A DNA stretch of 64,000 bases, from positions 33,318,322 through 33,382,321 of the forward strand of contig NC_064753.1 in NCBI RefSeq assembly GCF_011397635.1, written 5' to 3'. The position numbers and the translations under genes were made by a program. The notes beneath the pieces were generated by a model that was not told the DNA's origin, did not search any database, and worked only from the letters and a program-made list of their open reading frames with translations. Shown here in pieces: positions 13,187-62,111 of the stretch. Source of the stretch: Epinephelus fuscoguttatus. Lineage: Eukaryota; Chordata; Actinopteri; Perciformes; Serranidae. How positions within the stretch are numbered: position 1 is the stretch's first letter; each line of letters begins with the position of its first letter.

Positions 13187-16100
13187 ATGACGGCGAAAAT
13201 AGGCTTACTTCTGATTCTCCTGCTAACCTTGTTGACAGGTAAGACCTGATCACGACTGCTTCATCATACAGGCTGAATAATGTGTTTTCTTTTTAGTAAA
13301 AAAGTATATATAGAATATAATATTTATTGTGTTGCTTTGCATCTTTTCAATCTTTATTGCCCAACATTAATCAAAAAGTAGTCAAATGTAATAAGTTACA
13401 TCGTTTTAATTGATTAATTAAGATAGTTACATTACTTATTACATTTCTAACTGGATAACTAATCTACTACATTTCAAAAATAATTTTCCATCAATGTATG
13501 TTGTGTTAAATTTTCAGCTTTCAAAGTGTGGCTAACCATCACCTCATCTACATCTATTGTTCTTAAATTGATAGTCCTGCAAGAATATGCTAATAAGTAG
13601 CTATACTTTCCTCCAGTATTTCCATTTTAAACTACAAAATTTCAGGGAAACATACTGTAGTGTTTACTCAACATTAATGTGACAGATGTAATTACTAGTT
13701 ACTTTTTAGATTCAGACTCTGGTAAATGGTAAATGGACTGCTCCGACCACTCAGAGTGGTCAAGTGTCACATTCACACACACATTCACACACTGCTGGCC
13801 GAGTCCACGTGCTATTCAGTAACCATTCACACGCACTCACACACCAATGGGACAGCCATCAGGAGCAATTTGGGGTTCAGTATCTTTCCCAGGGATTCTT
13901 TGACATGCCTGGAAGAGCCGGGGATCAAACTGCCCATCTTGACTAAACTACTGAACCTTATATAAAGTAGGCGAGGCTATTAAAACTAGCTCCAGCTCCA
14001 CCAACTACAACAGTTAAATGCTTATTACACATTGTTGCATCAGTAACAACAAGCCTAATAGTATTACACTGACTTTTGCTGTTAATACCTCTGTACTTTA
14101 AGTATGGGTTTTAGTAGGAGTTTTACATTGTTGCCATGGTATTTTTACCAGCGTCTTGAAAAGTCTTGAAAAATAATGAAAACAGAAACAAACACAACGT
14201 TATGTGCGATATTAATTCTTGGCCATGTACACTGATAATAGGTCTAATAATCAATCCTGTGGTGTTGTTGTCACCTTGAAGTTGCCAGGCAACCAGAGAA
14301 ACTCAAATATTTTGTAACATTTGGACAGAGCTGAGCCACTGTTTCCCTCTGTTTCCAGTCTTTCTACTAAGCTCACCATGTCCTGACTACAGCTTCATAT
14401 TTATCATACATAATTATCTAGATTTTTACCACCATTTATTCACACCTGAGCAGCACTGACAGTGTTAATAGAGTCCCGTAGTACACAGATAACAGTGTAT
14501 CTTACCTTTTGTGAAACAATACAGCGCTGTATGACGTTTCTTGCAGGCTAACCCGGAAATTAGTGCTGCATTAGTTCCCTTGTCAAAAAACAAATGTTAT
14601 TTTTCAGTTGGATTATTGCAGGAAATGAGCTCTGTGGTAAATAAACATTGATTATACTTACACATCTTCGTCAGCAAGATAATCTCCACAACACCATCGT
14701 TATGATTTTTGAAGCATAAATGTAAACGCCAGAAATAAAAAAGCTAACGTTAGGCTATAAACCAGAACAAGTGTGTATTATTGGTTACTGTTTATGCCAC
14801 TTATTATGCTTCTGTGCATTGATAGCTTTTTTATATATATATGATATCTGACTGGGGAGGGTCACATATAAAGATATACATATATATATATATATACTTT
14901 GTATAAGCTAGAAAAAACTTTCAGTTGGTTGTCTGCTGTTGAAAATGTCTGGCCCATTGATATTTTCTGGTTTTAAAATCTGGCCCAGTTGAATTTATAA
15001 TTTAGCAGCACTGCAGTAGATCATCATCTCATAATGGGTGTCAGTTTCAGCAAAAATGTGAATGAATTCTCTTATACTCTTATCTGGACCCAAGTCATGT
15101 TAATTATTATATTGCTAGTTATTTTTCTTCTGTAGTCCTGGTAAGTACTGATAAAAATATGATATCAATCTTAATAAATGCATGTATTTAATAAATAATT
15201 TTAGGCCTTATTGTCCCTACTGGTTTGATTGCGAAACAGGTATTACATCACATTCTATCTGATATTAAAAAGTCTTAATCTAATATCGAAAATTGAATTT
15301 GGTGGACACTGCAGACACCCTGTTTACTTACATTTAATAATAAGAGGAATGACAATAGAGTCAGTGTAATGTGACAGGAACAAGACTCTATAATAAAAGA
15401 ATAGGCAATAAAATATCTTAAGGAACAGATCCTCAGTTTCCAAAGATTGTCAGAGGTCATCAACAATTTGAATATTCGTAATATAAGAAAAGCTGACATG
15501 TTGAATAAAAAATGTTTCCAGTGTTGTTACAGTTTAACTGTTATGATAATGTGCACATTCAAACTACCAATCCCACATTGTGAAATATCCATGCGATTAT
15601 GAGATGTGTCAAATAGCACGAACAAAGCATTCATCATCAGTGCTGAGTACTTCTGCAGAAACCGATTAACTTGCCTTTAAAAGGACATTACAAGGCCAAT
15701 AAGGAATTGGGAAATGGGATGTGGTCAGTTTGTAACGTAGTATTGTAGTTATGTCACATGAGTTCACGGTACAGAGTGATGCAGGAATGACTCCTGAAAC
15801 CTGAAAATGAATTTTAGCACTCGTGGTTTCCTCGTCTCAAAGTCAGTAGATTTTTTTGAATGGGTTTTTAGTTAGATGCCTGAAATAAGGTCTGCGGCTA
15901 ACACAAGCTTAAGAGACTGCCGTGTTTTGTTCTACGACATAAAATCCGTGAGCAAATACCCCATTCGTGAATTTTGAAACCTACATGTCCTAAAAAAAGG
16001 CGGTTGCGGTGGCGACACTGAAGTCTTGCGATTGCAATTATGCTTCAAAAATCATAAAAGTGATGTTCATTTGTGAAGATTATTCTGTTCTTTTCTTGTT

Positions 16101-19100
16101 CAGAGCTCATTTTCTGCAATAATCCAAAATCCAAATGAAAAATAACATTTGGTTTTTGACGAGGGAACCAGTGCGACGCTATTTTCCGAGTCGGCCTATC
16201 CCAGCTGACACTAGGTGAGAGGTGGGGTACACCCTGGACAGGTTGCCAGACTATCACAGGGCTGACACTTAGTGACAGACAACCATTCATTCTCACATTC
16301 ACACCTACAGCCAATTTAGAGTCACTAATTAACCTGCATGTCTTTGGACTGTGGGAGGAAGCCGGAGTACCTGGAGAAAACCCATACCGACATGGGGAGA
16401 ACATGGGGCTCCCTCCTGGGATTGAACCAGGAGCCAGCAGTAAAATGTCCATGAACAGACTTTTTTTTTCTCAATATCCACAAACAATTTCATGTTAATT
16501 TTAGAAAATATATTAAAATTTACAACACTTGTTCACAGGTGTGTGTCCTCAGAGACCCAGAGACGTAAATGTCAAGGCAGGTGAGATGGTGGCGCTGTAC
16601 TGCCGCCCTGACAGGAGGAATAATCATGGCGATGCTGGAGTGATCTGGAGAAGTTACACCACCCAGGAGATGAATTTGACCGCCATGTCATCAGCTGAGC
16701 AGAAGCAGATGGGCCTGCTGGTTCATGGGAGGAGTCTCGTCATTCTCAGTGCTTCTGTAAAGCATCAGGGGAACTACTCGTGCTCTCAGGGGTAAAGTCC
16801 AACAAACGATAAACAACATTACTCTATTGCAAGGAGGCAAAATTCCATGAAACCACATCTAAACTGTTTTTATTCCTGAGACTGACATTGAACAAGACTA
16901 AAAGGGCCATAAATAGTTCGGGCATGTAAACAGGATTTACTCCAGAGGGATTATTTTGGTCAAGATCACTGATGAATAAGGTTTTACATTAGTAATTTCT
17001 AATAGTAGCTTCATCCTAATGAAGATAAAGTGCAGATGTTTTATGTAAATGATATATTAGAAAACAGTATTGCTCATATTCTGAAAGCAAGGTTTGTCCT
17101 GTGTTCAACAACAGCAGCTTTTATACTCGCACAGAGCCACTGAACTTGTTGCTTGAGCATTAAAGGGGAACTATGGCCATTTTCAAAATTTGTATGTTAT
17201 TCCTACGGTCTAAGACAGTCCAAAAATATCAGTAAACATGAACAACTCTCTCCAAAATCCCCAAACTAGAGTGTTTAAACTCAAATCTGTGATGTCATCC
17301 AGCATGAAGCTGGAGTTGCTCCATAGACAGTGAACCCGGGAGAGATGTCACATGGCACTGAGAGCACCATTTCATTTCATCATTCATTGCCTGTGGAGCA
17401 GCTCCAGACTTTATACTTGACTTAATTCTGTGGCTTCTGGCTTTCTTACTTCATGTGGTGTTCCCCTTTAAAGAGTAAACTAGAGTCTGTCGCGGCACTA
17501 GCAGCTCTAGCAGCATGATTATCTGAACCAAATTTCATGGCAGTCCATCTAGAAGTTTCCAGTCCCAAAGACATTTCACTCAAAACCACAAGATTAAAAG
17601 TCAGAGAATCACCAGAGTCATTCAGGATGAATCCTGACTTTCTGGGAACGCTGAATGTCTGTGCAACACATCTTTTCTCAGCAATCCATCCAGTTTGTCT
17701 CTACCAAGGAGATGGACTAGCGGACAGTGCCATCCCTAGAGCAATGGCATGATTAAAAGGAGCTCTTACTCTCAGATTTGTCTCTCCATCCAGGCAGTTC
17801 TGGTGTGATTTTATTCTTTGCAGCATGAAACCTTGTCTCACATGAAAAGCCACTGCAGAATGTTTAAAATCTGAATGTGAAACCTTTATATTAACTTTTT
17901 CTTTGATGACATGACAGGGACGCCGGCAGCCAGGCCTGGTTCAGGCTGACAGTTTACACAACACAGAGAGAGGGTGAGGAGATGAGCCAGTACCCTCAAA
18001 CCTGTTACGCACAAGAGGCCTGCACATTGTATTGCCCTGATGTTAATGTCCCTGCTGAAGGTATTCTAAATATTACCAGCAACGACATAATATGGCGCAA
18101 GGTATGTAACTATGAGTGAGAATAAGATTTGATTGAGAAATAAGGAACTGCATCATGCTCAATTTCGTGTTTTAAAGCTAAGCTTTATGTTTCATCTTGT
18201 AGGTGGGCGAGTCATTGCCAATACATGGTTACTTCTCACGTGTGAAAGAGAAAGACCATGGTGCCTACACCTGCAGCAGATCTTACCTATATAATGGTCA
18301 AATATATAACAGGACCTTTACTGTGCTGCTTGACGTCAAACCAAAGGGTGAGAAAGAGCACTTCTTTCTATTCATGTTGATGTTCACAGACTTTAATATG
18401 TTTATTTGTGTTACATGTTTCCTGTTTTTGTGGCACAGAAAAATCTGGAACACCAGTAATACTTTCACCACTCGGTGGTGATGTCTTTCATGTAGATTTA
18501 GGTGAGTTATATGTCCTATTTTGTAGATGCATTCACGTGTATACACATGGCTATTATAACAGGTGAAAGTAACAAAAATTATTTTGAAAAATGTAGGTTA
18601 TGAAAATGCATGTGAATTGAAAAACTGAGATGTAAACATTGATGTTAAAAAATAGTGATAAATTATCAAGAGATTTGATTAATTTGTCTACCATTCATCA
18701 TTCACAACATCCAAGTGGGAAAACACACTGACTAACTGTTGAAGGTTTTGGCTCTCACAGGGAAACTTTGCGGATTTTCAACCAGCTATGTGTCACTGCA
18801 GTGCGTGCAAACACACGGTGTTTCTTTCCTCACCAGAGCTCCCGGCTCATCCGCTGAGGTTATGAGACAATGGGCCCCTAGGCACAGATATGCAAAGGGC
18901 CCCACCACCTCTTCTACATAGGAGCAAGACACAAAGACTATGTAGTGGTTTGGGTCTCTTTGTCGTTATGCATCATATAATGGTTTTGCATCTCTATGTG
19001 GTCAGTTTGCCTCTCCTTGTGCTGGTTTTGTGTCTCTTTGAAGTCATGTTGTGTCTCTTTTGGCTCGTTTTGACTCGTTCGGTTCTTGTTAATGTCCATT

Positions 19101-20995
19101 CATCCATCCATTCATTTTCATCCCCTTATCCGAGGTCGAGTTGAGGGGGCAGCAGGCCAAGCAAGGCACCTCAGACATCCCTCTCCCCAGTAACGTTTTC
19201 CAGCTCCTCCTGGGGGACCCCAAGGCGTTCCCAGGCCAAATGATATATGTAATCCCTCCAGTGTGTCTGCCCCAGAGCCACCCCCGCGGGAGCCGCCCAG
19301 GATCAGATGCCGGAACCACTTCAACTGACCCCTTTGATGCAAAGGAGCAGCGGCTCTACTCCGAGTTCCCTGTGGATGTCCAAGCTCCTCACCCTATCTC
19401 TGAGGCCCTTGCTCTGAAGGGCTAGTTTCATACCCACTACCCCTTGTTATGCCCCCTACCCCTACATGCAAAAAGGAATTGGGACACCCCTACCCCTAGG
19501 GCCAAAGGGTAAGGCTAAGGGGGGGTATTGGGACAGGCCCTAAGGATGAGCCCAGCCACCCCACAGAGGAAACTCATTTCGGCTGATTGTACCTGCGATC
19601 TCATTCTTTCCGTCACTACCTAGAGCTCATGACCATATGTGAGGGTTGGGAAGTAGATGGGCCATTAAATCAAAAGCTTCGCCTTCTGGCTCAGCTCCCT
19701 CTTCACCACGACGGTCCAGCGCAGCGCCCGCATCATTGCAGAAACTGCGCCAAACCACCATTCCATCTCACTCTCCATTCTACCCTCACTCGTGAACAAG
19801 ACCCTGAGATACTTGAACTCCCTTGCTTGAAGCAGTAACTCTCCCCAAACACAGATGGGGCAATCCACCGGTTTCCGGCAGAGAACCATGGCTTCAGTTT
19901 TGGACTTGTTAATGTGCGTAACATTTTGTTAGTGAAGGCCAGGGGACACCTTGGGCCTCTGGGCCTGTGCCCGGTAGTCCTGTTCAGTAATCTAGCCATG
20001 GTTGTGAATGATGAATGACAGATGGGGAAAATGATTAAACATGGCTCTGTTTTTATCACATCACAGCTGTTTTAATCAAATAGGGTATGAATTAATTAAA
20101 TCACATAATAACCTCCATTTGTATCATTTAATTTTTGTACTGCTGCCACTCCTCACAGACTATAGCTTAAAAAAACATAAACTGCGTTAACTCTGCTTTT
20201 TCTAGGCTCAACAAAGGTGATTGATTGTGAAGGTGTCATGTATTCAGACTTTGATGGCATGTTCTGGTACAGCGGGGAGTCAGTTGTAGAAACAAAAAAC
20301 AGCTATTCAATTTTCTACAATACAACACGGTAAAGATTTTGTATGAGAAAAAAAGTTTGGAAGCACAAATGTTAAAGGCAGCCACATTTACACACATGCA
20401 CATTGTAGCTAACAGTCGTCTTTCTGGATTTTTTTCTTTCCTTTTCTTTACAGGGAAAAGAATGCTGGAGAAATAAAGATGACAGCATCTCTCGTCTTCA
20501 AAAAAGTGTCAGAGGTGGATTTATCAAAAAATTACACCTGTAAACTTACATCTGTCTCTGGACACTCAAGCTCTGTCACCATCACTTTGGCCCAAAAAAG
20601 TATGTAAGGTGTATGGAATTGCTATTGTATATGTATTATTCCAGAGGTGTTGTGTACGATTTATGATACTAAAGCTTGAACCAGTTCAACTGAACTGTAC
20701 TTGTTAATCACATCTCCAATTAACACACATTTAAATTATGAGGAAGTTTCATCTGCTGTCTGCTACTTTAAATAAATTTTAAGAGTTATTTGTCCTTTAT
20801 ACGCCTACAGCACCTCCTTCCTCCTTCTCCCTGGCTCTCAGCATTCTCTGTGCCGTGGTGGTGGTGGTGGTGTTCGTTGTAGCAGTTGTTGTTATTGTGA
20901 AGCTATCCTTGTCCAAGATCTGGCCTGCTGCACACCACCCATGCAGCGTTTGTGGAGCAGCAGACCCACTTGATCCAAGACTGAGTCACAATTAA
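13187..20995 (+). CDS. il1r2: Interleukin-1 receptor type 2-like decoy receptor
   Basis: Coding exons: 13187-13238 (signal peptide, MTAKIGLLLILLLTLLTG), 16539-16791 (Ig1, cysteines in LYCRP and YSCSQ), 17918-18101 and 18203-18347 (Ig2, LYCPD...YTCSR), 18439-18501 (linker), 20206-20329 and 20454-20599 (Ig3, IDCEG...YTCKL), 20811-20995 (TM plus tail). All junctions are GT-AG and in phase; total 383 aa (human IL1R2 398). Sites such as NLT, NYS, NIT, NRT and NTT suggest heavy glycosylation. A hydrophobic run (AVVVVVVFVVAVVVIV) is followed by about 30 cytoplasmic residues and no TIR domain, so it should bind IL-1 without signalling. The tail is written over a TIR-exon fossil. Ig1-Ig2 exons are nearly identical to those of the signalling gene at 24373, so strict orthology to IL1R2 is inferred from architecture rather than proven. 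Confidence 0.88.
13721..13962. repeat. Dispersed 'ggtaaatggactg' fish repeat
   Basis: It starts with the duplicated ggtaaatggtaaatggac and continues with cacattcacacacacattcac and, near its end, gagccggggatcaaactgcc. This string order belongs to a repeat family found widely in fish genomes. It lies in intron 1 of the decoy receptor. Confidence 0.6.
14822..14895. repeat. AT-rich simple repeat
   Basis: Two short TA tracts (14833-14843 and 14876-14896) lie in intron 1 of the decoy gene. The rest of that intron (about 13963-16190) shows no exon or named repeat to me. Confidence 0.6.
16192..16440 (-). mobile_element. DANA-like tRNA-derived SINE, 5'-truncated
   Basis: The reverse complement contains the hallmark body ccaaagacatgcaggttaat and the tail ccagggtgtaccccacctct...agctgggatagg, matching the fuller copy at 32677-32997. 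The tRNA head is mostly lost. It lies just upstream of exon 2 of the decoy gene and is absent from the same position in the signalling paralogue. Confidence 0.8.
17160..17471. mobile_element. TTAA MITE, 312 bp
   Basis: It begins TTAAAGGGGAAC and ends GTTCCCCTTTAA, a perfect 12-bp inverted repeat including TTAA. It sits in intron 2 of the decoy gene and is missing from intron 2 of the signalling paralogue, so it inserted after (or was not covered by) the last exchange between the two. Confidence 0.85.
19085..19960 (-). mobile_element. RTE/Rex-type LINE reverse transcriptase C-terminus, degraded
   Basis: The minus strand reads VLCRKPVDCPICVWGELLL and EFKYLRVLFTSEGRM at 19890-19700, then DPGRLPRGW and ITYIIWPGNALG at 19300-19200. 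These are the end of a reverse transcriptase widespread in fish. The two coding parts are in different frames and are separated by an insertion near 19440-19545 with ends resembling 'gggacacccctacccctag'. It accounts for most of the size difference between intron 5 here (1.7 kb) and in the signalling gene (0.1 kb). Confidence 0.7.
20909..20990 (+). pseudogene. TIR-exon fossil forming the decoy receptor's cytoplasmic tail
   Basis: From 'tccaagatctggcctgctg' to 'cagacccacttg' this DNA aligns with 29620-29680 in the TIR exon of the signalling receptor (tctggcctgctg..., ccatgcag, ttgtggagc, gcagac, cttg), with only a handful of mismatches and small gaps. The old TIR frame would read SGLL..HAAFVEQQTHL against SGLLSAIHAALVERQTRL, and closes at a stop soon after. 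The decoy gene reads the same bases in another frame (KIWPAAHHPCSVCGAAD). Confidence 0.85.
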
Positions 20996-24372: not shown

Positions 24373-24511
24373 ATGATGTTGAAAGTGCTCCTGCTCCCTC
24401 TGTGTTTCTTCTTTGCGTCACTAACAGGTAAGAGAATGGTGTCAAAGGGTAAACATTCAGTGTTACGTGTCATTTGGTTTCATTGGACAGATAGATAGAT
24501 AGATGGATAGC

Positions 24512-24559
<48 letters not shown>

Positions 24560-27500
24560 CAGACCGACAGAGCTTATTTTTCTTTATATACTGCTGGGTA
24601 GCTTGTGAATTCTGTCCTATAGGAAACAATAAAGTCTTATCTTAACACATAGTAAGACATCATAATTTATTTTGTGATTATATTCTGTCGTTATTAATGT
24701 GAATCTGCAAAATGACCAATTACTAAAGTCATCAAATAAATCTAGTGGAGGAAAAAGTACAAGATTTGCCTCTGAAGTTTAAAGTAGCAGAAAAGGGAAA
24801 TGCTCAGAAAAAGTACCTCAAAATTGTACTTGAGTAGAGTACTTGTGTAAATTTAGATCAAATCATAGATATTAAGCATCATGCAAATATTACATAATTT
24901 AAATTTTAAATGCATCAGAACATATCTGTCTATCTTAAGGCACTGGACTCATGCTGAATCCCACAAATGACTCATTTTCCGTCAAACTGAAATCATAAGA
25001 TACCAAAAAATAAGGATGTGGTTAAGAACACCCACTTTCAACACTTTACAGCCACCAAGCAAATGCTGTCTCACCAATGATCAGGGCATGAAATTAACAA
25101 AATATTTTGGGGGCAATTTTGGCCCCACGGTCTAAAAAATGGGGGCATTTTCAAAATGTTTGGGGGCCATCAAAAAATTGTAATTATGTTCTAACAATAA
25201 GCACATGAAAAGCAAAACCAACTAAGATAGTGTCTTCACTCTTCAGTAGAAACCACTATAAATGAAATAAATAATGGGTTACATGAAGTTATGGTTGCAA
25301 AATATCACTCAGATTTCCTATAATTCAACCAGTGTAAATGTGATGATTTAACCATTAATCTACTGATAGCAGTACTAAGGTTTCACCACATTACAGTTAC
25401 TTTTACTGTTAAAAAAGCTAAATTACTATAAATTCCTTAGATGCAATCCTGGAAGTAAGTTAATTTAAAATTTAACATTCATTATACCTTAATTTTTCAT
25501 TAATTTGTCATTGTGTACACACATATCACCCAAGAAATGGTTAATTTATACTTATGGTACAGCAAAGCCCCCTCCCCTTCTCTGTCAGATTATTCTCACG
25601 TAATCAGTGCAATCTCGTTGATTATGTCTGGAAAATGAGTTGTAGACGTGACGGTAAATTAATTTAATAAAAATAAAAGTACACTTCTTATACTAATTAT
25701 ACTACTAATGTCAGATTGATTGTAATACTGTTAAAAATTTAAATACATATATTTGTTTCAAAAACTTGGGGGCAATTTTGGCACCCGGAACATGGCTTTT
25801 GGGGGCATTGTTGGATAAATTGCGGGCCAAATGGCCTGTGGCCCTTGCTAATTTCTGACACTGCCAATGATCCAGTATGAGGTGTTACCAGAGCAGACGG
25901 TAATGATATCCACAAACAAGTTCATGTTAATTTTACAATATACACTCAAATTTACAACACTTGTTCACAGGTGTGTGTCCTCAGAGACCCAAAGACGTAA
26001 ATGTCAAGGCAGGGGAGATGGTGGCACTGTACTGCCGCCCTGACAGGAGGAATAATCATGGCGATGCTGGAGTGATCTGGAGAAGTTACACCACCCAGGA
26101 GATGAATTTGACCGCAATGTCATCAGCTGAGCAGAAGCAGATGGGCCTGCTGGTTCATGGGAGGAGTCTCGTCATTCTCAGTGCTTCTGTAAAGCATCAG
26201 GGGAACTACTCGTGCTCTCAGGGGTAAAGTCCAACAAACGATAAACAACATTACTCTATTGCAAGGAGGCAAAATTCCATGAAACCACGTCTAAACTGTT
26301 TTTATTCCTGAGACTGACATTGACCAAGACTAAAAGTGCCATAAATAGTTCGGGCATGTAAACAGGATTTACTCCAGAGGGATTATTTTGGTCAAGATCA
26401 CTGATGAATAAGGTTTTACATTAGTAATTTCTATCAGTAGCGTAGTGGATAGTGCCGGTGCCCCATGTATAGAGGTGATGCCTCGCTGCAGCGGTTGCGA
26501 GTTTGACTCCAGCTTGCAACCCTTTGCTGCATGTTGTCCCCCCACTCTCTCTCTCTCCCCCATTTCACACACTATCCTGTCCATTAAAGGCAAAAAGCCC
26601 CAAAAAAATATCTTTGGCAGTCCATCTAGAAGTTTCCAGTCCCAAAGACATTTCACTCAAAACCACAAGATTAAAAGTCAGAGAATCACCAGAGTCATTC
26701 AGGATGAATCCTGACTTTCTGGGAACGCTGAATGTCTGTGCAACATCTCTTTTCTCAGCAATCCATCCAGTTTGTCTCTACCAAGGAGATGGACTAGCAG
26801 ACAGTGCCATCCCTAGAGCAATGGCATGATTAAAAGGAGTTACTTACTCTCAGATTTGTCTCTGCATCCAGGCAGTTCTGGTGTGATTTTCTTCTTTGCA
26901 GCATGAAACCTTGTCTCACATGAAAAGCCACTGCAGAATGTTTAAAATCTGAATGTGAAACCTTTATATTAACTTTTTCTTTGATGACATGACAGGGACG
27001 CTGGCAGCCAGGCCTGGTTCAGGCTGACAGTTTACACAACACAGAGAGAGGGTGAGGAGATGAGCCAGTACCCTCAAACCTGTAACGCACAAGAGGCCTG
27101 CACATTGGATTGCCCTGATGTTAATGTCCCTGCTGAAGGTATTCTAAATATTACCAGCAACGACATAATATGGCGCAAGGTATGTAACCATGAGTGGGAG
27201 TAAGATTTGATTGAGAAATAAGGAACTGCATCATGCACAGTTTGATTTTACATCATTTGTGTTTTAAAGCTAAGCTTTATGTTTCATCTTGTAGGTGGGC
27301 GAGTCATTGCCAATAGATGGTTACTTCTCACGTGTGAAAGAGAAAGACCAGGGTGCCTACACCTGCAGCAGATCTTACCTGTATAATGGTCAAATATATA
27401 ACAGGACCTTTACTGTGGTGCTTGACGTCAAACCAAAGGGTGAGAAAGAGCACATTTTGTATTTGTATTCATGTGTTGAAAAAAAGATATAAAGTGTTTT

Positions 27501-29891
27501 CTCCTTTTTTTGCACAGAAATAGCGAAATATCCGAGCATCACGAAACCAAACAAGGGTGATAACTTTACTGTAGATTTGGGTGAGCTTCAATGAAACGTC
27601 AAGACACACACTAAGATTTACAAGCATTTACTGTCTTTCTGAATTACACTCTGTAGATCTCATGTAAACCCCTGTGTTTCTAGGCTCAACAAAGGTGATT
27701 GATTGTGAAGGTGTCATGTATTCAGACTTTGATGGCATGTTCTGGTACAGCGGGGAGCGGTACGGGGAGTCAGTTGTAGAGAAAAACAACAGCTTTCCAG
27801 TTTTCTACAATACAACACGGTAAAGATTTTGTATGAACAAAAGAGGTTTGGAAGTGCAAATGTTAAACGCAGCCACATTTACACACATGCACATTATAGC
27901 TAACAGTCGTCTTTCTGGATTTTTCTTTTTCCTTTCCTTTTCTTTACAGGGAAAAGAAAGCTGGAGAAATAAAGATGACAGCATCTCTCGTCTTCAAAAA
28001 AGTGTCAGAGGAGGATTTATCAAAAAATTACACCTGTAAACTTGTAGCTGTATCTGGACACTCAAGCTCTGTCACCATCACTTTGGCCCAAAAACGTATG
28101 TAAGATGTACTGGTAGAGCTTCGGTTTTAGCTTTGCTGCTATTGTATATGCATTTTTCCAGAGGTGCTGTGTACTATTTACTATACTAAAGCTCCAACCA
28201 GTTCAACTGATGATCCCAGGATGCACTTAATTGTACTTGATAATCACATCCCCAATTAACACACATTTAAATGATGAGGAAGTTTCATCTGCTGTCTGCT
28301 ACTTTAAATAAATTAAATTTAGTTACTTGTCCTCTATACGCCTGCAGCATCTCCTTCCTTCCTTCTCCCTGGCTCTCAGCATTCTCTGTGTCAGCGTTGC
28401 GATTGTTGTAACAGTTGTTTAGTCTTCAAAAAAGTGATAGAGGAGGATCTATTTAAAAAACAAAAACACATGTAAACTTGAATCTGCATCTGGACACACA
28501 AACATCACCATTGCCTTGACTCAAAAGCATATGTTGGATGGATGGATAGATTTTTGAGTGGGGCTGCAGTTAATTGTTATTGGACATCTATCATTGTTAT
28601 CATTTTTGGGTTCATGAATTGGAATGATGTCATTTTTCAGTCTATTATGAGTGTTTTAATTAGTAATACATTTATTCTCTCCCTACATTTTCTACAGCTC
28701 GCCCTTCTTATGTGTCCCTGGTTGTTGCCTTTGCCAGCACCACGCTGGTGGTGGTTTTTACAGTACTTATCTACGTGAGGTTCAAAATCGACATCACTCT
28801 GTTCCTAAGAGACACTCTTGGCTGCCATAGCAGCACCTCAGGTGGGAATCATGTTTTTGGTTTACTAACAACTTGTGTTCAAGGTAACGCTCCACCCGAA
28901 GAATAACCATTTGTGTATCAATTACTTACCGTGTGTTACCTCAAATTAAGGAAGGAAAATGTTTTTCTCTCATGCCTCCACAGTAAACAGAGTATCCAAA
29001 AAAGGCAAACATTCATAATGAGCTGAAGTCAACAACTACAAAACTAGGCGGCATACTGGTGCAGTGGTTAGCATTGTCACCACTTGTCCTGCCGCGTTTC
29101 CTCCTGACGCTGTTGGGCGCTGTTAAACTACAACGGCAACTGGCCACATATATGCTGATGTTAAAGGACAGCTTTTTTCTTGGTTTCTGATGCCACAAGT
29201 CACTGCCCAAGCGTCAGATTTCAACTTCGGAGTGAGACCTGGCTCTTCTTTCAGGAAGGACAGCAGTGACAAATCTGTTGTTTTTTTGTTGTCTGCTTAG
29301 ATGGAAAGAGCTATGACGCCTTTTTGATGTGTTACAAGAGTGACACAGATGCAGGACTAAATGCTCATGACAGAAGATGGCTGGAAAGTGTTTTGGAGGA
29401 AGAGTTTGGTTACCGTCTCTGCCTTTATGATCGTGACATCTTGCCAGGGAAAGGTATGTATTTCAGACATACTTAAAATAAAAATCTACCTTAAAATCCT
29501 AAGGAATATAAATAATATTAAATCTGAACTCTGGTTGGTTGCAGCTGTAGCCGAGGCAGTGCTGGACAGTATAGAGCAGAGTCGCACCATGATTTTGATT
29601 CCCACCTCTCCAGATCTCGGTCCAGGCTCTGGCCTGCTGAGTGCAATCCATGCAGCCCTTGTGGAGCGGCAGACTCGCTTGGTTTTCATCAAAACTGAGG
29701 CAACAGAAGTGCAGAAATCTGGTTCGTTACCAGAGGCCTTACAGCTTCTTAGCAAAGCTGGAGACTGTGTCACATGGAAAGGCGAAAGCTCCATGCGGTC
29801 CTCCTCCTCTTTCTGGAAGCAGCTACGTTATTACCTACCCACCCCACAGCAGCATGCACCACAAATAAGGCTTTCAACTCAAACGATCTAG
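24373..29891 (+). CDS. Signalling interleukin-1 receptor (IL1R1/IL1RL1-like) with TIR domain
   Basis: Exons: 24373-24427 (signal peptide MMLKVLLLPLCFFFASLTG), 25971-26223 (Ig1), 26996-27179 and 27295-27439 (Ig2), 27518-27580 (linker), 27684-27819 and 27950-28095 (Ig3), 28698-28841 (TM and juxtamembrane FKIDITLFLRD), 29301-29453 and 29545-29891 (TIR). All junctions are GT-AG and in phase; total 541 aa, close to IL1R1 (569) and ST2 (556). TIR box 1 is YDAFLMCY, box 2 GYRLCLYDRDILPGK, box 3 FWKQLRYYLP, so it should recruit MyD88-type adaptors. The ectodomain is a near copy of the il1r2-like decoy upstream, whereas TM and TIR are of signalling type. Intron 7 holds dead exons that record this join. 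IL1R1 and IL1RL1 cannot be separated without a tree, so no symbol is given. Confidence 0.9.
24488..24560. repeat. (GATA)n microsatellite
   Basis: Imperfect then perfect GATA units in intron 1 of the signalling receptor, 60 bp after the signal-peptide exon. Confidence 0.95.
25082..25863. mobile_element. Non-autonomous hAT element, 782 bp, perfect 8-bp target duplication
   Basis: The ends are CAGGGCATGAAATTAACAA and, on the other strand, CAGTGTCAGAAATTAGCAA. CCAATGAT flanks both sides (25074-25081 and 25864-25871). Sub-terminal blocks rich in 'gggggcaattttgg' occur at both ends. It lies in intron 1, ending 107 bp before the Ig1 exon. Confidence 0.9.
26436..26605 (+). mobile_element. tRNA-derived SINE (second family)
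   Basis: It starts 'agtagcgtagtggatagtgc', an A-box-like head, followed by 'ggttgcgagtttgactcc', a B-box-like element, and a CT-rich body ending 'aaaggcaaaaagcccc'. It is unlike the DANA-type SINEs here. It occupies intron 2 of the signalling gene at the spot where the decoy gene has its own sequence plus a TTAA MITE. Confidence 0.7.
28349..28421 (+). pseudogene. Dead copy of the decoy-type transmembrane exon
   Basis: catctccttccttccttctc and the following 'cctggctctcagcattctctgtg' match the start of the decoy gene's TM exon at 20811. The upstream intron (28096-28348) is collinear with the decoy intron 20600-20810. The copy breaks off after about 70 bp at gttgtaacagttgttt, where a second exon remnant begins with no gap. 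It has an intact AG acceptor but would terminate at once if used. Confidence 0.88.
28421..28535 (+). pseudogene. Dead second copy of the Ig3 (3' half) exon
   Basis: gtcttcaaaaaagtgataga through 'tgtaaacttgaatctgcatc' and 'accattgccttgactcaaaa' matches the Ig3 exon at 27950-28095 (and 20454-20599), but is more diverged from both than they are from each other. It reads TCKLESASGHTNITIALTQK, with a frame slip upstream near 'aaaaaacaaaaacac', and lacks the 5' part of the exon. It is probably the original Ig3 exon of the signalling receptor. Confidence 0.88.
29041..29260. repeat. Inverted copy of the repeat at 10780-11235
   Basis: tgatgccacaagtcactgcc and 'cttcggagtgagacctggctc' are the reverse complement of text at 11035-11100, and 'gctgttgggcgctgttaaac' matches the 10786-10820 block. 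It sits in the intron between the TM exon and the first TIR exon, ending about 40 bp before that exon's acceptor. Confidence 0.6.
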
Positions 29892-34095: not shown

Positions 34096-36433
34096 ATGCA
34101 AACTGGATACATTCTGTGTTTTTTAATCGTTCCCGTTTTCTTGGAGGGATGCTGTGTGGGAAACCATCGAAGGAAAAAAACAGGTATTTCACTCAAAGAC
34201 AAATCGTGTTTCAGTTTTACAGCAGAAAAATTGTGCTGTTTGATTTGTGTTTAAATGGATGCATGTGTGTAAACACTCGTGTCCCAGACCTTGTGGTCAG
34301 AAAATGAAACCAAATCACAACTCTCTCTAGTTCTTCAGCAGGTTACACACCGGCGCTACAAAGCTGTGAAGGGCGAAATCTTTATGATACCGTGCATAGA
34401 ATCTGTGAACCAGCACCTAACTGCAAGTACTGGAGAAGGCAAAGAAGGAAATGAAGCCCTGTCCTTTGTCTGTGGAAAGAAGTTTACTGCTGAAGCAAAA
34501 CATACTGGAAACTACACATACAGGTAAATAATCATGTTTTTATTCACAAATTGAAAGCATCTGACTAAACCTAGACATATTTATGCACCTGAAATGAATG
34601 TCTTCAAAACAGGTTGTGTAATCAAACAGTACAATTATGTTTTTCCTTTATGATATTGCATAGGAGGAAAATAACGTGACTTTAAAATATTAGTGTTTTC
34701 ATTCAGGAATTTTGAACCATAGATTTACATGTTTTAAAGTTTCTCTTAAAACAACACTCACATGGTCATATGTACATTTAAACAATAATAATGACAATGA
34801 TAGTTTCTTAAGTTTCCAAATTAAGTCCCAGTCTCTGTGTTTCTACTCCTAAATAAGTCATACTGTAATCAGTCACCACCAATTGTGAGGCCACTTTTTA
34901 AAATGAGTATTGATTACTTTCAATTAAACGGTATAACATTTAAAAGTAAAATGATCAGGTATCCTGTGGTTTGGTGCTTGTCACACATTTATTGTCTGTG
35001 TTCTCTTCTGCGATGCCAAATGCAGCTTTCCCTTCAGTAAAGTGACTGGCTGTTTTTGGAATGATTTAAAGAATACGCTTATCTGTTGCCAGGAAAATGA
35101 ACTGATGATTTGCTGCACAGTTAGTATTGACAAAGGCTACATACAAGGCTACAGTCTAAGCTAACTCACGAGTTTTTGTCAAAATCGAGTTGCATGGCTT
35201 TTTACAATGTGCAGTTTTTAACCACCAGTAGCACTATGGAGTGATGACTTTATGAGTGGGTTCCAAGTGGCAACTACAGAGGTAGTCTTGCGTGACCAGC
35301 CTCCCTTACTTCGAAATGGGAGTCTGGGGACATTCGACTTCCGTTTTGTAATAGAAATGGGCGGGGATATCCAGACCACGTGACGGCGTTGCCATAGGTG
35401 CAGCACCTGTGTTACATGTAACAAAAAATGAGACGTTGCAGCTCTGCAATATAGCTGAATCAAATTAAATCATATCCATTTTAATCTCTTCTTGCGATGC
35501 ACTGAACACTTCCTTTTCTGTTGTACTACGGACAACAATTTGAGGAACAGCAATTCCGGTGTAGGCGGGTGTAAGGCAAAGCTAATCAGCCGTTGGTCGA
35601 GGAAGTACCAAAGTGCACGGATTTGGATCCAATCTGCCGCTGCCGCTGGGAGCCAGCGCTAGTTCTATTACAACTTTCCTATGGGAATATCCACAGATGA
35701 CAGAGTCAGCCAGCGTGCTGACGTCATCGCCGTCTGTGTAACAGACTACTACAGAGGCTGAAAGATAAAGCCAATGTCCAAGTGCCAAAAACTGCCACTA
35801 AAGGCTGGATCCCAAAGTGAGGTAATCCCCATGAACCCTTGTGTTAAAATGTCCAACTTTACAGCAGAAAAAAAAAAAATGAAACATGTTGTAAAATAAA
35901 CTTGCCTTGCTTTATAGTCATCAGTAGCAACTTTAAAAGTCTTTACTGGATATCATAATTTTGTTGTGTATACCGCATATGATTGAACTTCAGGTCTTTG
36001 CTGTCCAGTGGCAGCAAGTTGTTCATCAGTCTACAGGTGGTGGAGCCAAACAGTCTGAGATGCTACGAGCCAAAGGAGAGCAATGAAATACTGTACGCGA
36101 GTGCAGGTGGGGTCATCTCATGCCCAAGTCTCAACTGTAGTGACAACGCAGATGCCATCTGGTTCAAGGTAAAGTGCACACACAAGCAGGATTATCCATC
36201 TCACAGTGGAAATATAAATTACAGTTAAGACTCAGAACAAGTGTGTTTCCCTTACAGGGTAATGAACCTGTGTCTGAGCAGCGCAGAGCCATCTGCCAGA
36301 AGAAGGGACAGTTACATCTCTGCCAAGTCAGATACAATGATAAAGGTGTATATTTCTGTGATAGAAAGATAGTTGAACAAGGAATCACATGGACATTCAG
36401 GAGGGCTGTTAACGTCACAGTTGAACGTAAGTG

Positions 36434-36485
<52 letters not shown>

Positions 36486-39400
36486 GTGGGGTAGAGCTTA
36501 AACATATGGGGAGTGGAAAAAACAAAACACATGCACACCAGTACCTTTAGCATGTACCTCCCTGCCTAACTTGCACTTCATCTAACCTAGCTGACCTAGT
36601 TAGGGTTAGGCACAGGTATGGTGTTTAGTGAAGCTACAGGTCAGCTGCAATATCCAGTAATGTGTGGCACTACAGCTAACACTAAGAAAATAGTGGGAAA
36701 AACTATTTTTATTCATCAAAGTAGGAAATATATAAATACAGTGAGGGATGTCTACACCTCAACCTACGGGATACCCTATGATACATTATAATCCACCATT
36801 TGAATTTTCATTTCAAACATGATTGGTAGCACGGTGGTGCAGTGGTTAACATTGTCGCCTCACAGCAAGAGGGTTCCTGGTTCGAACTCAGGGTGGGGGG
36901 TTGCCCTTCTGTGCAGAGTTTACATCATCTCCCCATGTCAGCATGGGTTTTCTCCAGGTACTCCAGCTTCCTCCCACAGTCCAAAGACATGCAGGTTAAC
37001 TGGTGACTGACAATGGTCGTCTGTCTCCATGTGTCAGCCCTGTGATGGTCTGATGACCTGTCTAGGGTGCTCCAGGCCCCCCTCAACTCCCAACAGGATA
37101 AGCGCTTACAGAAAATGAATGATTTTCCGTAACTGAATGATGAATGACTTCTGGATCAGTTGGAACACATTTTTATACAGGTCTGTAAGAACTTTAAAAA
37201 GCAACACAAAGTACAAAAAAAACAAAGAAATAAGCTTTTGCAGAGCAATCCAATAATAATAATAATAATAATACATTTTATTTCTTAGGCGCCTTTCTGT
37301 CACTCAAGGACACCTTACAATGGATAAAAGACAGTGCACAGTACACAATAAAATCAATTAAAATAATTTAAAATAAGATTACAAAAGAAAATCACAAAAA
37401 GTACACGCGAGTAAAAACAGTTAGATGTGGACAGGAAATGGGGTTAGTGAAGGGAAAAGGTGATCTTAAACAGGCGTGTTTTGAGTCGGGACTTGAATTG
37501 TGATAGTGTACTGATGTTCCTTATTTCGGGTGGAAGAGAATTCCAGAGCTGGGGAGCAGAGCGGGTGAAAGCTCTGCTCCCCATGGTGGTGAGACGGGCG
37601 GAGGGGACAGTCAACAGAATGGAGGAGGATGATCGGAGGGTGCGAGAGGGAGTGGCGATGTGGAGAAGACTGGAAAGATATGGGGGGGCAAGATTATGGA
37701 TGGCTTTGAATGCAAGCAGAAGGATTTTGAAGTCAATGCGGGACTTGACCGGGAGCCAGTGGAGCTGCTGTAGGACCTGAGTTATGTGGTGGATGGCGGG
37801 GGTTCTGGTGATAACACGGGCAGCTGAATTCTGGACCAGTTGAAGTTTGTGCAGGGATTTGTGGGTGAGACCGGAGAGGAGGGAGTTGCAGTAATCCAGG
37901 CGGGAAGTGATGAGACTATGGACAAGGATAGCAGTGGCATGGGGAGTAAGGGAGTAAGGGAAAGTAAGCAGACCGGGTGATGTTGTTGATGTGAGATCGG
38001 AAGGAAAGTGTGCTGTCAAGGATGACACCCAGACTTTTAACCTGTGGGGAGGGGGAGACTGAGCAGTTGTCAATGGTGAAGGGGAAACTGTCAGTTTTGG
38101 AAAGTGTTGACTGTGTGCCAATGAGAAGAATCTCGGTTTTATCAGAGTTGAGTTTCAGAAGATTTGAGGTGAACCAGGATTTTATTTCAGTTAAGCAGTC
38201 AGTAAGGGAGGAGGGTGGGAGGTTGGCAGTGGGTTTGCTAGCGAGGTAGAGCTGGGTGTCATCCACCTAACAGTGAAAGGTGATGTTATGTTTGCGGAAG
38301 ATGCTGCCAAGGGGAAGAAGATAAATGATGAAGAGGAGGGGCCCCAGGACAGAGCCCTGGGGCACACCTGAAGTAACAGGGGAAGGTTGGGATGTGAAGT
38401 GTTTGAGCTGGATGAACTGAGTGCGGTGAGAGAGATAAGATTTAAACCAGTCTAGATAAGTATGAGTGATGCCGATGGAAAATAGTCTGTTGAGGATTGT
38501 GGTGTGACAGATGGTGTCGAAGGCTGCACTGAGGTCAAGGAGGATGAGGATGGAGAGTAAACCAGAATCAGCTGCCATGAGGAGGTCGTTGGTTATTTTT
38601 GTGAGTGCAGTTTCTGTGCTGTGGAGAGGGCGGAAACCAGACTGGAACTGTTCATACAGGTTGTTGTGTGAAAGATGGGAGTGGAGTTGAATTGCTACTG
38701 TTTTTCAAGAATCTTGGAAATGAAGGGGAGATTAGAAATTGGACGTAGGTTATTGAAGTTGGTGGGATCTGCACCGGGTTTTTTTCAGAATTGTGGTAAT
38801 TGCAGCGGTTTTGAATGGTGTAGGAACAGTTCCAGTGGAGAGAGAGGAGTGGATGATGGAAGAGATGAGAGGGATCAGGGAAGGGAGGCAGGCTTTGACC
38901 AGAACTGTGGGGAGAGGGTCGAGCTGACAGGTGGATGGCTTGGACTTCCGGATAAGATCTGAAATTTCTGAGGTGGTGGGGAGCTGGAAGGAGGAAAAAG
39001 AGTGGGTAGGAGGGGGAAGTTCGGGTACGACATTGAGGGTGGGTTGTGAGCTGAGTTGCTGATGGATCGTCTGGATTTTCTGACTGAAGAATGACATGAT
39101 GGAGTTACAGAGAGCAGTAGAACAAAGGTGAGTTGGTACAGATTCCGGGGCTTGTGTGATATTCTTATACAGTGAGAACAGTGATTTGGTGTTACTTTCG
39201 TTGGAACAGATAATACCGGTGTAGTAGTTTGATTTGGTTTGAGTAATGCAGTCCTTATAGTGTAACATATGGTCTTTGTAAATGTCTTTGTGAATATGAA
39301 ATCCAGTTTTTCTGTAGAGCCGCTCGAGTTGCCGTCCTTTGGCTTTCATGAGCCGAAGTTCAGGGGTAAACCAGGGGGCGGAAAGGGAAAAGGAGACAGA

Positions 39401-42400
39401 CTGGGTTTTTAGCGGAGCAAGGGAGTTGAGTATGTGATGGAGTCCAGTATTGTAGTGTGAGACCAGCTGTTCAAGGGTGGATGAATTCTGAGTAGCCATG
39501 TGGGAGTCGATACAGGAGGAGAGGGAATCTAAGTTAATGTCCTTAATATTGCGAAAAGAAATGAGACAGGGGAGCTTGGTAGTGGAGAGGGGGAGTCTGA
39601 TACTGAATGAGAGGAGAAAATGGTCAGTTATGGGGAGATCAACTGTTGTTTGGTCAGAGGGGAAGACACCAGAGCAGCAGATTAGGTCCAGGATGTGACC
39701 CTTAGAGTGAGTGGGGGTATCGGTATGCTGTTTAAATCCAAGACTATCAAGGCAAGATGTGAAGTCTTTGGTGAGAGGGTTGTTGGTATTGTCTACGTGA
39801 ATGTTGAAGTCTCCGAGCACTATGCTGTTTGGTGAAAGGGTGAATAGGTGGGTGAGCAGAGCAGCAAAGTCATGTAAGAAGTCGTTGTTTGGTATTGGGG
39901 GCCGGTAAACAGTTGCAATGATGGTGGGAGTAGGTCCAGAGAGTTGACAGACAGTGGATTCAAAAGAGGTGAAGGCAGGGGTAGGCACCAGCGAGACTTT
40001 CCACTTTTCGCGATAAATTATCGCGATACCTCCTCCCCGGCCGGTGCCACGGGGTTGACAGATGTAAATGAATTCCGGGGGAGTAGATTCATTTATTTGG
40101 GAGAAGTCATTGGGTTGTTGCCAGGTTTCGGTTAAACAGAAACAGTCAAAGTTATGGTCAGTGATGAGATCCTGGATGAGATGACCTTTGCTTGTGGGTG
40201 AGCGGATATTGAGTAGACCGAATTTGACAGTGGTGTTTTCAAAATTGGCAGTGGTGTTAGCCAACCGGGGTAGGCAGGCTAGCACACTGTGGTCAACGGC
40301 CCGACCGTGTTTCGTGGAGGGGGACGGAAATTAGACCAGATGGATTTTATTGACTGGTTGGGAGGGACGGGGGCGCTAGTGAGCTGGGTTGTGCTTTGTG
40401 CTGCTGCTGGCGAGGGGTGAGGAAGAGTGTCTATGGCGGGAGTGTGTGGTGTAAATAGTCAGTCACGTGGAGCATAATGTACGGAATACTGCTTGTTGGC
40501 TGCAAGCATGCGACCACCTGTGGTGTTGGGATGAATGCCATCGGACTTAAAAAAGGAGGGGCGGTTCCAGAAAAGATTAAAATTGTCCATAAAGTTAAAA
40601 CCTCGAGCGTAGCAGGCAGGCTTGAGCCAGGTATTGAGCATGAGTAATCTGGAGAAGTGCGCGTCACCGTGACCAAATGTGGGGATGGGACCAGAAATAA
40701 AAACAGACTTTCCACAGGTGTGAAGGAAGTCCAAGATTGAGATAAAAGCACGTTTTGTCAGCTCAGAGGCACCCCGAGCCAGGTCATTGGTCCCCACGTG
40801 CACCACTAGACGGGTTACGGAGGACGGGAGTGACCGCAGCAGGCCAGGGAGCTTTCCCAGGATTTCCAGGACTGTGGCTCCGGGGAGGCAACAGGTGGTG
40901 GCGTTGAAGAAGCGGATATTCCGAGTAATGGAGTCCCCAATGATCAGGGTGGTTGGTGGGAAGAGTGGACGAAGATGAGGTTGAGCCGGGAGGGATGGTG
41001 GTGAGCCAGCGTCCGGGGCGTGTGCTGACGGCAGGATCGGTGACTGTGCCCGGCAAGACAGGTGTTGCGGTGTGTCGGCCGCCCCGGCCCCAGGAGGAGG
41101 AAGAGGGGAGTCCGCCAGCGGCGTGGGGTGGCGCACGCCTCCAGAGCGTCAGAGAACGGCTTCTTTCAGGAATTTGCGGCGAGAAGTAGAGGTAGGTGTC
41201 CTGGAAGAGGGCTGGCGATACGTGACCGAAGCACAGCGGCTCCGGGCACCGGCGGGGAAGATGGCCTCGCAACACCCACGGGCGCCGGGCCGCCGAGGCG
41301 GCGAGCCGCGAGGACTGTCAAGATGATCCCGGGCGCGGGGCAACCGGAGCGGGGAGAAGACGCACCAGCAGCCGCCGAGGCGCCGGGGACCACGGGGCCA
41401 TCGGAGTGGGAAGCCGCAGGGACGCCGCCAGCCGTAGGTGTAGGACCAGCCGCCCCGGACGTGGAGCCGCTCGGGCCCGAGGACGGAGCACCAGCGGTCA
41501 CAGGCGGAGAGGGGCCAGCGGCTCCCCCAGGCAGGGAGCTACCAGAGCCAGGCGGCGGGGCCTCCCGGCACCGGGTGAAGATCTGGGTTGTCGGCCAGGG
41601 CCTCGAAGCGGTTGGAGAGGCTCAGACGAGGAGGAGAGGCAGTCGCATCCTGGACTCCCTTTCTGCCACGGATCATGACCTCGGCCCAGGACAACTGGAG
41701 GCTAGGTGTTGAGGAAGTGAAAGGCCGCGGACAGGTGGAGATATCCCATGGAGCAGTATCCTGGAGAGCCGCTTTGAGTGAGACTATTTGCATGGATTGT
41801 TCGTGGGCAATGTCCAGAGAGGAGGTCAACAGGGCCTGTTTATTCTGCAGCTCCTGGGAGAGTCGACGGATGTCATCTTTAAGGTCAGAGATTTGTTTAT
41901 ATGATTTTGTGAGGGTGGTGGTGTTGCAAGCCATGGCTGTAGCTCATATACTAGCGTAGGCTGAGCTAGCCGGCTAGTTTAACATGTACCGTTTGCTGCG
42001 ATGCTAATCCTGTAGCCTGGAGCTGACCTGGTGGTGAAGGTTGTTAGCTGGTAGCCTGGTAAAGGTTGTTAGCTGGTAGCCTGGTAGCCTGTGTCGAGTC
42101 CCATTGACTGAGTGTGTTGAGTCCCACTCAATTGACCTGCAGCCGTGAGTTGTGGAGCATGAATTCTTGCTGCTTTTTAAAGTTTGCATCCATGGATCTG
42201 GACATGAGAACTCCCATGGTGGCGCTGTTACTGTTGACCTAATATACTTTGACGACGTTTAGCTAAATAATGAAATGATACTCGTCACAACAGCGGGGCT
42301 GACAGGGTTTTCAAGGACATGACATGAAAACAAAAATGTGTACACCGCCTCAGAACTAACTGACTTCCTATATATCACATACCTCTGAGAAATGGTTTTT

Positions 42401-42559
42401 TCACACATTTGCACAATCTGGGTTTGTATACACCATGCTCTCATTACTCACTGTGAGAAAACTCTGAACACTCAACCTTTAAGCTGATTCATATCTGACT
42501 GATAAACCAAAAAACCACAAGGCCTCCTGCACAGCAGGTGGTTATCTATCTATCTATCC

Positions 42560-42594
<35 letters not shown>

Positions 42595-48371: not shown

Positions 48372-48416
<45 letters not shown>

Positions 48417-62000: not shown

Positions 62001-62064
62001 TAATATGTTTATATAAGTGTATAATCGCTATAATTCGTTTGGTTTTCATAGCCTTATAATTATG

Positions 62065-62111
<47 letters not shown>

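Follow-up and report, generated by a model that had tools for sequence, protein, structure and literature searches.

SIGLEC11 and SIGLEC16 are neighbouring genes whose receptors signal in opposed ways, and their ectodomains are kept similar by repeated gene conversion while other parts of the two genes differ (PMC5701461). FCGR2C has its first six exons of the FCGR2B type and its last two of the FCGR2A type. It originated by one unequal crossover with segmental duplication, and keeps a single type over its whole 5′ part (PMC6786274). In the IL-1 receptor family, IL-1R2 was derived from a duplicate of IL-1R1 by an old truncation (PMC5861070), and IL-1R2 has been described in teleosts (PMC7144542, PMC4929537). 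The literature searched, which took in few subscription papers, yielded no description of exons being exchanged between IL-1 receptor genes.

The window analysed here, a stretch of 64,000 nucleotides from the fish Epinephelus fuscoguttatus, contains two tandem IL-1 receptor family genes, both on the + strand and in the same orientation (Table 1). The first, D, is of the decoy type and the second, S, is of the signalling type. The reading favoured here, to which we assign a probability of roughly two in three (0.68), is that the ligand-binding exons of these tandem neighbours were overwritten by repeated non-allelic gene conversion between D and S, and that two dead exons in S intron 7 represent the scar of one such event.

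Table 1. Features of the locus; positions are counted from the first base of the window
Feature	Position	Strand	Remarks
Gene D, decoy type	13187-20995	+	8 coding exons, 383 aa; model built in this analysis
D exons 1-4	13187-13238, 16539-16791, 17918-18101, 18203-18347	+	Gene model
D exons 5-8	18439-18501, 20206-20329, 20454-20599, 20811-20995	+	Gene model
TIR-exon scrap in D coding tail	20911-20988	+	Like last TIR exon, S 29620-29702, in another reading frame
Gene S, signalling type	24373-29891	+	10 coding exons, 541 aa; model built in this analysis
S exons 1-5	24373-24427, 25971-26223, 26996-27179, 27295-27439, 27518-27580	+	Gene model
S exons 6-10	27684-27819, 27950-28095, 28698-28841, 29301-29453, 29545-29891	+	Gene model
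Tract A, D-like	25906-27454	+	Late intron 1 to early intron 4; resembles D 16474-18362 closely outside intron 2 inserts
Island, not D-like	27455-27676	+	Rest of intron 4, exon 5 (27518-27580), intron 5
Tract B, D-like	27677-28421	+	Exon 6, intron 6, exon 7, 5′ intron 7, dead TM exon; matches D 20199-20890
Dead D-type TM exon	28348 to ~28421	+	Acceptor AG at 28346-28347 (CAG kept); 3′ end missing
Join of dead TM and dead Ig3 exons	28421-28422	+	D TM exon, ~base 80, to S exon 7, base 41
Dead second Ig3 exon	28422-28528	+	S exon 7 from base 41; first 40 bases, acceptor and donor gone
Working S TM exon (exon 8)	28698-28841	+	Phase 1 at both ends, frame open
Third IL-1 receptor family gene	34200-48800	+	TIR exon 48434-48583; extent read from frames
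STK16-like kinase gene	57213-63560		Exon 57213-57551 matches STK16, 107 bits; other exons by eye

The two genes and their mosaic likeness

The S model reads in one open frame through an Ig-like ectodomain, a TM segment and a cytoplasmic TIR domain, as in the IL-1 receptor family, and all nine introns have GT-AG ends. Pfam detects TIR at 49.8 bits (cut-off 21.3) and ig at 40.4 bits. IL-1 receptor family chains head the PDB matches of S; for the ectodomain these are IL1RAP (34.4 bits), IL1R2 (30.1), IL1RL1 (26.4), IL18R1 (25.4) and IL1R1 (18.3). S also has an FKIDI juxtamembrane motif, which we take to resemble that of IL1R1.

The D model likewise has an open frame, with GT in seven of seven donors and AG in seven of seven acceptors. 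The gene model and the Pfam Ig models give three Ig-like domains, a TM segment and a short tail, and Pfam finds no TIR match in D at E 0.001. This is the layout of an IL-1R2-type decoy, and human IL1R2 is the top PDB match of the D ectodomain (37.7 bits), followed by IL1RAP (33.7) and IL1R1 (30.0). D is read as a decoy type, a putative receptor that would bind ligand without signalling, and the order D-S presumably mirrors the IL1R2-IL1R1 order of mammals. The IL1R1 match extends over residues 158-248 of D at 30 bits and over residues 158-235 of S at 18 bits; the shorter and weaker match in S fits with its exon 5 being unlike that of D.

Farther downstream are a third TIR gene, whose nearest PDB chains are IL1RAPL2 and IL18RAP, and a kinase gene. 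A piece of a DDE_Tnp_4 transposase (60972-61304, - strand, 42 bits) lies within the kinase gene stretch. Relatives of S and D were sought in the genome, which comprises 1.05 Gb in 26 contigs. A search with the ectodomain yields 16 rows at E up to 10, with 12 in the S/D locus and four elsewhere at E 0.35 to 9.1. The TIR sequence yields two rows at E 0.001, both of them S, and misses the TIR gene at 48 kb, so that these searches are no proof of absence. The Pfam TIR model gives 32 rows at E up to 1, and the surroundings of part of these were examined. At C5:1870001-1890000 there are two TIR genes on the - strand, one of which is IL1RAP-like by eye and has an Ig3-like exon; this locus was considered as an outgroup and set aside as too distant. 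Flanking sequence searched by tblastn with S and D (30 kb on the upstream side of the window, 10 kb on the downstream side) gave no row at E 5, and six peptide patterns of D have no match in viral contigs.

S resembles D in patches with abrupt edges. Within tract A, which is also visible by sliding identity and BLAST, exons 2-4 differ from D at 11 of 582 bases. The divergence is uneven; five differences fall in the final 41 bases of intron 1, and intron 3 differs at six of 101. Intron 2 carries inserts that are unlike each other in the two genes (D 17010-17537, S 26442-26614) and that have the look of mobile elements by eye.

Likeness is lost about 15 bases into intron 4 and regained about seven bases 5′ of exon 6. 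The island between has no BLAST match to D. Its exon 5 differs at 16 of 56 aligned bases (40 of 61 are alike in another alignment), which sets it apart from the exons of tract A (Fisher 9e-12) and of tract B (1e-6), in tests that treat sites as independent, as do all Fisher tests given here. Exon 1 is also unlike that of D, with 30 of 52 bases alike, and so is most of intron 1. The TM exon of S, exon 8, is only weakly like that of D (score 21, reached by 50 of 1000 shuffles).

Tract B aligns by BLAST at 85% with gaps (D 20199-20852 against S 27677-28390), and its exons 6-7 differ from D at 13 of 270 bases. In exon 6 there is a 12-base in-frame difference (27751-27762) that gives S four residues, RYGE or equivalent, absent from D. 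The differences in exons 6-7 are synonymous at two sites and nonsynonymous at ten, a ratio that gives no sign of strong constraint; for exons 2-4 the numbers are five and six. The introns of the two tracts differ from D to unequal extents (22 of 729 bases in tract A against 26 of 332 in tract B, Fisher p 0.001), as do the exons (p 0.02). Two tracts of differing divergence call for at least two exchange events.

Two dead exons in intron 7 of S

Intron 7 has 602 bases in S, compared with 211 in D. Its 5′ part is collinear with D intron 7, with differences at 18 of 208 aligned bases, and leads to a dead copy of the D TM exon. BLAST aligns this copy to D at 94% over 51 columns (28340-28390 against 20803-20852, E 1e-16). 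The alignment score to the D TM exon is 89, and the best of 1000 dinucleotide shuffles attains 30; to the TM exon of S the score is 15, equalled by 674 of 1000 shuffles, which amounts to no likeness. The copy differs from D at 10 of 71 bases, with one base inserted and a gap of nine, and it lacks the 3′ end, stopping near base 80 of the D exon.

The second relic is a dead Ig3 exon, by which is meant the 3′ exon of Ig3 only. It matches S exon 7 at E 1e-18, with 20 of 102 aligned bases different, and D exon 7 at E 7e-15, with 22 of 102 different; not one of 1000 shuffles reaches its score against either. The relic carries indels, and reads ATATGT at the donor position where S and D have GTATGT. 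At the six sites where exon 7 differs between S and D, it agrees with S at four, with D at one and with neither at one. These sites are too few to decide, and offer no evidence for D as the source of the dead Ig3 exon.

The two relics adjoin directly, with a few bases of doubt on the exact boundary. No long sequence is shared across the join, which is consistent with end joining without homology. Beyond the relics, the stretch 28536-28697 resembles neither D intron 7 (score reached by 56 of 1000 shuffles) nor S 28096-28347 (68 of 1000 shuffles attain its score of 22). When the whole genome was searched at the DNA level with 28200-28720, there were four matches among the best candidates scored, all in the S/D locus, and a third genomic source of the relics is absent from these four.

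The first-pass annotation had described a broken decoy-type TM exon abutting a broken second Ig3 exon, behind an intron collinear with that of D. All of this holds, with the start of the TM relic at 28348 instead of 28349. It had also named random intronic sequence as the explanation that would speak against it; the BLAST E values and shuffle scores rule this out.

The first-pass annotation had further assigned the Ig3 relic to an older receptor, and the relic is indeed older than the D-like DNA that it adjoins. Its divergence from S exon 7 exceeds that of the tract B introns from D (Fisher p 0.0015), and the two sides of the join are therefore not of one age. A duplicate of S exon 7 produced by that event would be expected to lie closer, and the dead exon is best read as a leftover of S's own exon 7 that predates tract B. 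Since it is about 80% identical to exon 7 of D, S and D would be fairly young duplicates or would have been made alike at an earlier time. The fitting phase and the open frame suggest that S splices exon 7 to 28698, skipping both relics.

A proposed history and its rivals

The observations can be brought together as follows. A break or gap in S near exons 6-7 would have been repaired on a D template, with copying that started in shared sequence at the exon 6 acceptor, continued over exons 6 and 7 of D and its intron 7, and took in some 80 bases of the D TM exon. The copied D-type sequence would amount to about 745 bases, taken as the length in S (27677-28421). The new end might then have been attached, with no homology involved, to what was left of S, at base 41 of its exon 7. 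The exon 6, the intron 6 and the first 40 bases of exon 7 that S originally had would have been lost; no trace of these three was seen. From the D-type exon 7, splicing would have passed directly to the TM exon native to S, which has a fitting phase. The scraps, bypassed in this way, would have been neutral, and would have decayed.

Break repair is the proposed mechanism, and the non-homologous right edge of tract B speaks for it. It should be pointed out that a direction, from decoy to signalling gene, is proposed for the tract from exon 6 to the TM exon only. It is based on the D-type TM scrap, and would be reversed if S had once had such an exon itself. More generally, gene conversion is indicated by ectodomain exons and introns that are far more alike than the flanking parts, and more than one tract by the differing divergence of A and B with the dissimilar exon 5 between them. 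Templated replacement is preferred to a single fusion because the latter would make exons 1-7 of S D-like, and exons 1 and 5 are not.

The main rival would leave the same present sequence. It supposes an old tandem duplication within S, from the middle of exon 7 to the middle of the TM exon, followed much later by conversion from D up to the join. The duplication would account for the pair of relics, and the later conversion for the resemblance of the dead TM exon to D. The observed order of exon 7, intron, TM part, exon 7 part, intron and TM is the one it predicts, conversion would end where homology ends, at the join, and the agreement of the dead exon 7 with S at four of six informative sites suits it as well. 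Yet the dead TM exon is without likeness to the S TM exon, 28536-28697 does not resemble 28096-28347, and the same conversion is required plus one extra event. We regard this history as unlikely.

A one-step fusion is somewhat more doubtful. Here a deletion would have joined an upstream D copy to S, from the TM exon into S exon 7, so that exons 1-7 came from D. The first-pass annotation had proposed a history of this type, with a single block of D from Ig1 through part of the TM exon. One join would place a dead TM exon beside a dead Ig3 exon, and D and S do lie in tandem in the same orientation; however, S is unlike D in exons 1 and 5, in introns 4 and 5 and over most of intron 1, and the block as proposed has to be given up. 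An unequal crossover of the FCGR2C type would give exons of a single parental type up to the join, which S does not have. Exons 1, 5 and 8 together with introns 4-5 are not what a single join of two genes should leave behind. Tracts A and B also differ in divergence, and fusion can be upheld only by supposing that the D duplicate was old when it was fused and that conversion in two tracts came afterwards. Of the related proposal that S is a decoy ectodomain on a signalling TM and TIR, what stands is D-like Ig1-Ig2 and Ig3 on a TM and TIR that are not D-like; exons 1 and 5 do not conform.

Two further explanations are very improbable. The dead TM exon might still be used, with splicing into its acceptor giving a soluble receptor with 42 new residues at its end. 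The acceptor and the upstream tract are retained, the frame is open for 42 residues to a stop, and a soluble IL-1R1 form has been reported in orange-spotted grouper (PMC4929537), but the exon has a shifted frame and a lost donor, and 28348-28697 contains no signal of the AATAAA/ATTAAA type and no strong donor pattern. An assembly artefact, with two haplotypes or both paralogues collapsed into a chimeric S, could be suspected from the near identity of D and S over long stretches, but an insertion, a lost donor and indels are damage particular to the relics, and the join has no counterpart in either parent.

The decoy tail and comparison with known systems

The coding tail of D contains a scrap of a TIR exon. 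D 20911-20972 matches S 29620-29681 at 79% over 62 bases (BLAST, E 7e-9), and the score of 60 compares with 29 for the best of 1000 shuffles. According to the exon phases D reads the scrap in a frame other than that of TIR, and translated searches show the likeness in both frames. The likeness comes to about 80 bases in all; none was found in the next stretch of D past about 20988. The tail may have originated by a deletion that removed the TIR and joined TM to the last exon, or by the pasting in of a TIR piece. The TM/TIR junction of D lies at about 20890-20911, and the end of the dead TM relic in S, at D 20890, falls within a few dozen bases of it. The closeness of these breakpoints in the TM exons is a coincidence that the repair model does not explain.

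Perhaps this lineage remade its decoy out of a signalling receptor, by a deletion that linked the TM exon to the interior of the last TIR exon and left a frame-shifted TIR scrap for a tail, and exons have been traded since, with S now carrying the decoy's Ig3 and possibly its whole ligand-binding face. This is a tentative proposal, and rather doubtful. If true, the ligand choice of a cytokine receptor would have been rewritten by its own decoy. The TIR scrap is relevant to the origin of decoys.

To be effective, a decoy has to bind the same ligand as the signalling receptor. Exon bases of S and D are 97-98% identical over Ig1-Ig2, and 95% over Ig3 outside one 12-base gap, so that the two proteins, if both are made, should compete for one ligand. 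Conversion may keep the ligand-binding faces of S and D matching and let the decoy compete. The locus provides a legible record of this upkeep of likeness, with two tracts of different age and untouched islands between. Its non-homologous edge points to the probable donor, and has kept part of the exon that was replaced. Were related fish to show the same pattern, the pair would offer a direct way of testing whether such exchanges recur and are selected.

In its three Ig-like domains, TM segment and short tail without TIR, D is like IL-1R2 (PMC5861070, PMC4929537). It differs in having an ectodomain nearly identical to that of its signalling neighbour, and in the recognisable TIR-exon scrap of its tail, which would speak for a younger TIR loss or a later transfer. 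S is like FCGR2C in that one neighbour's ectodomain type stands on another tail type, and in having an exon that is present and, as predicted for S, spliced out. It differs in that its 5′ part is mixed, exons 1 and 5 being unlike those of D.

SIGLEC11 and SIGLEC16 offer a close likeness, as D and S are also neighbouring receptors of opposed output with similar ectodomains. The former are inhibitory and activating lectins, for which several primates and binding assays have been reported, whereas D and S are a decoy and a signalling receptor known from the sequence of one genome. Dead exons mark the edge of an exchange in S, and go unmentioned in the abstract of the SIGLEC11/SIGLEC16 account (PMC5701461). 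Exchange by gene conversion between paired receptors is of a known kind; in S its scar is unusually legible.
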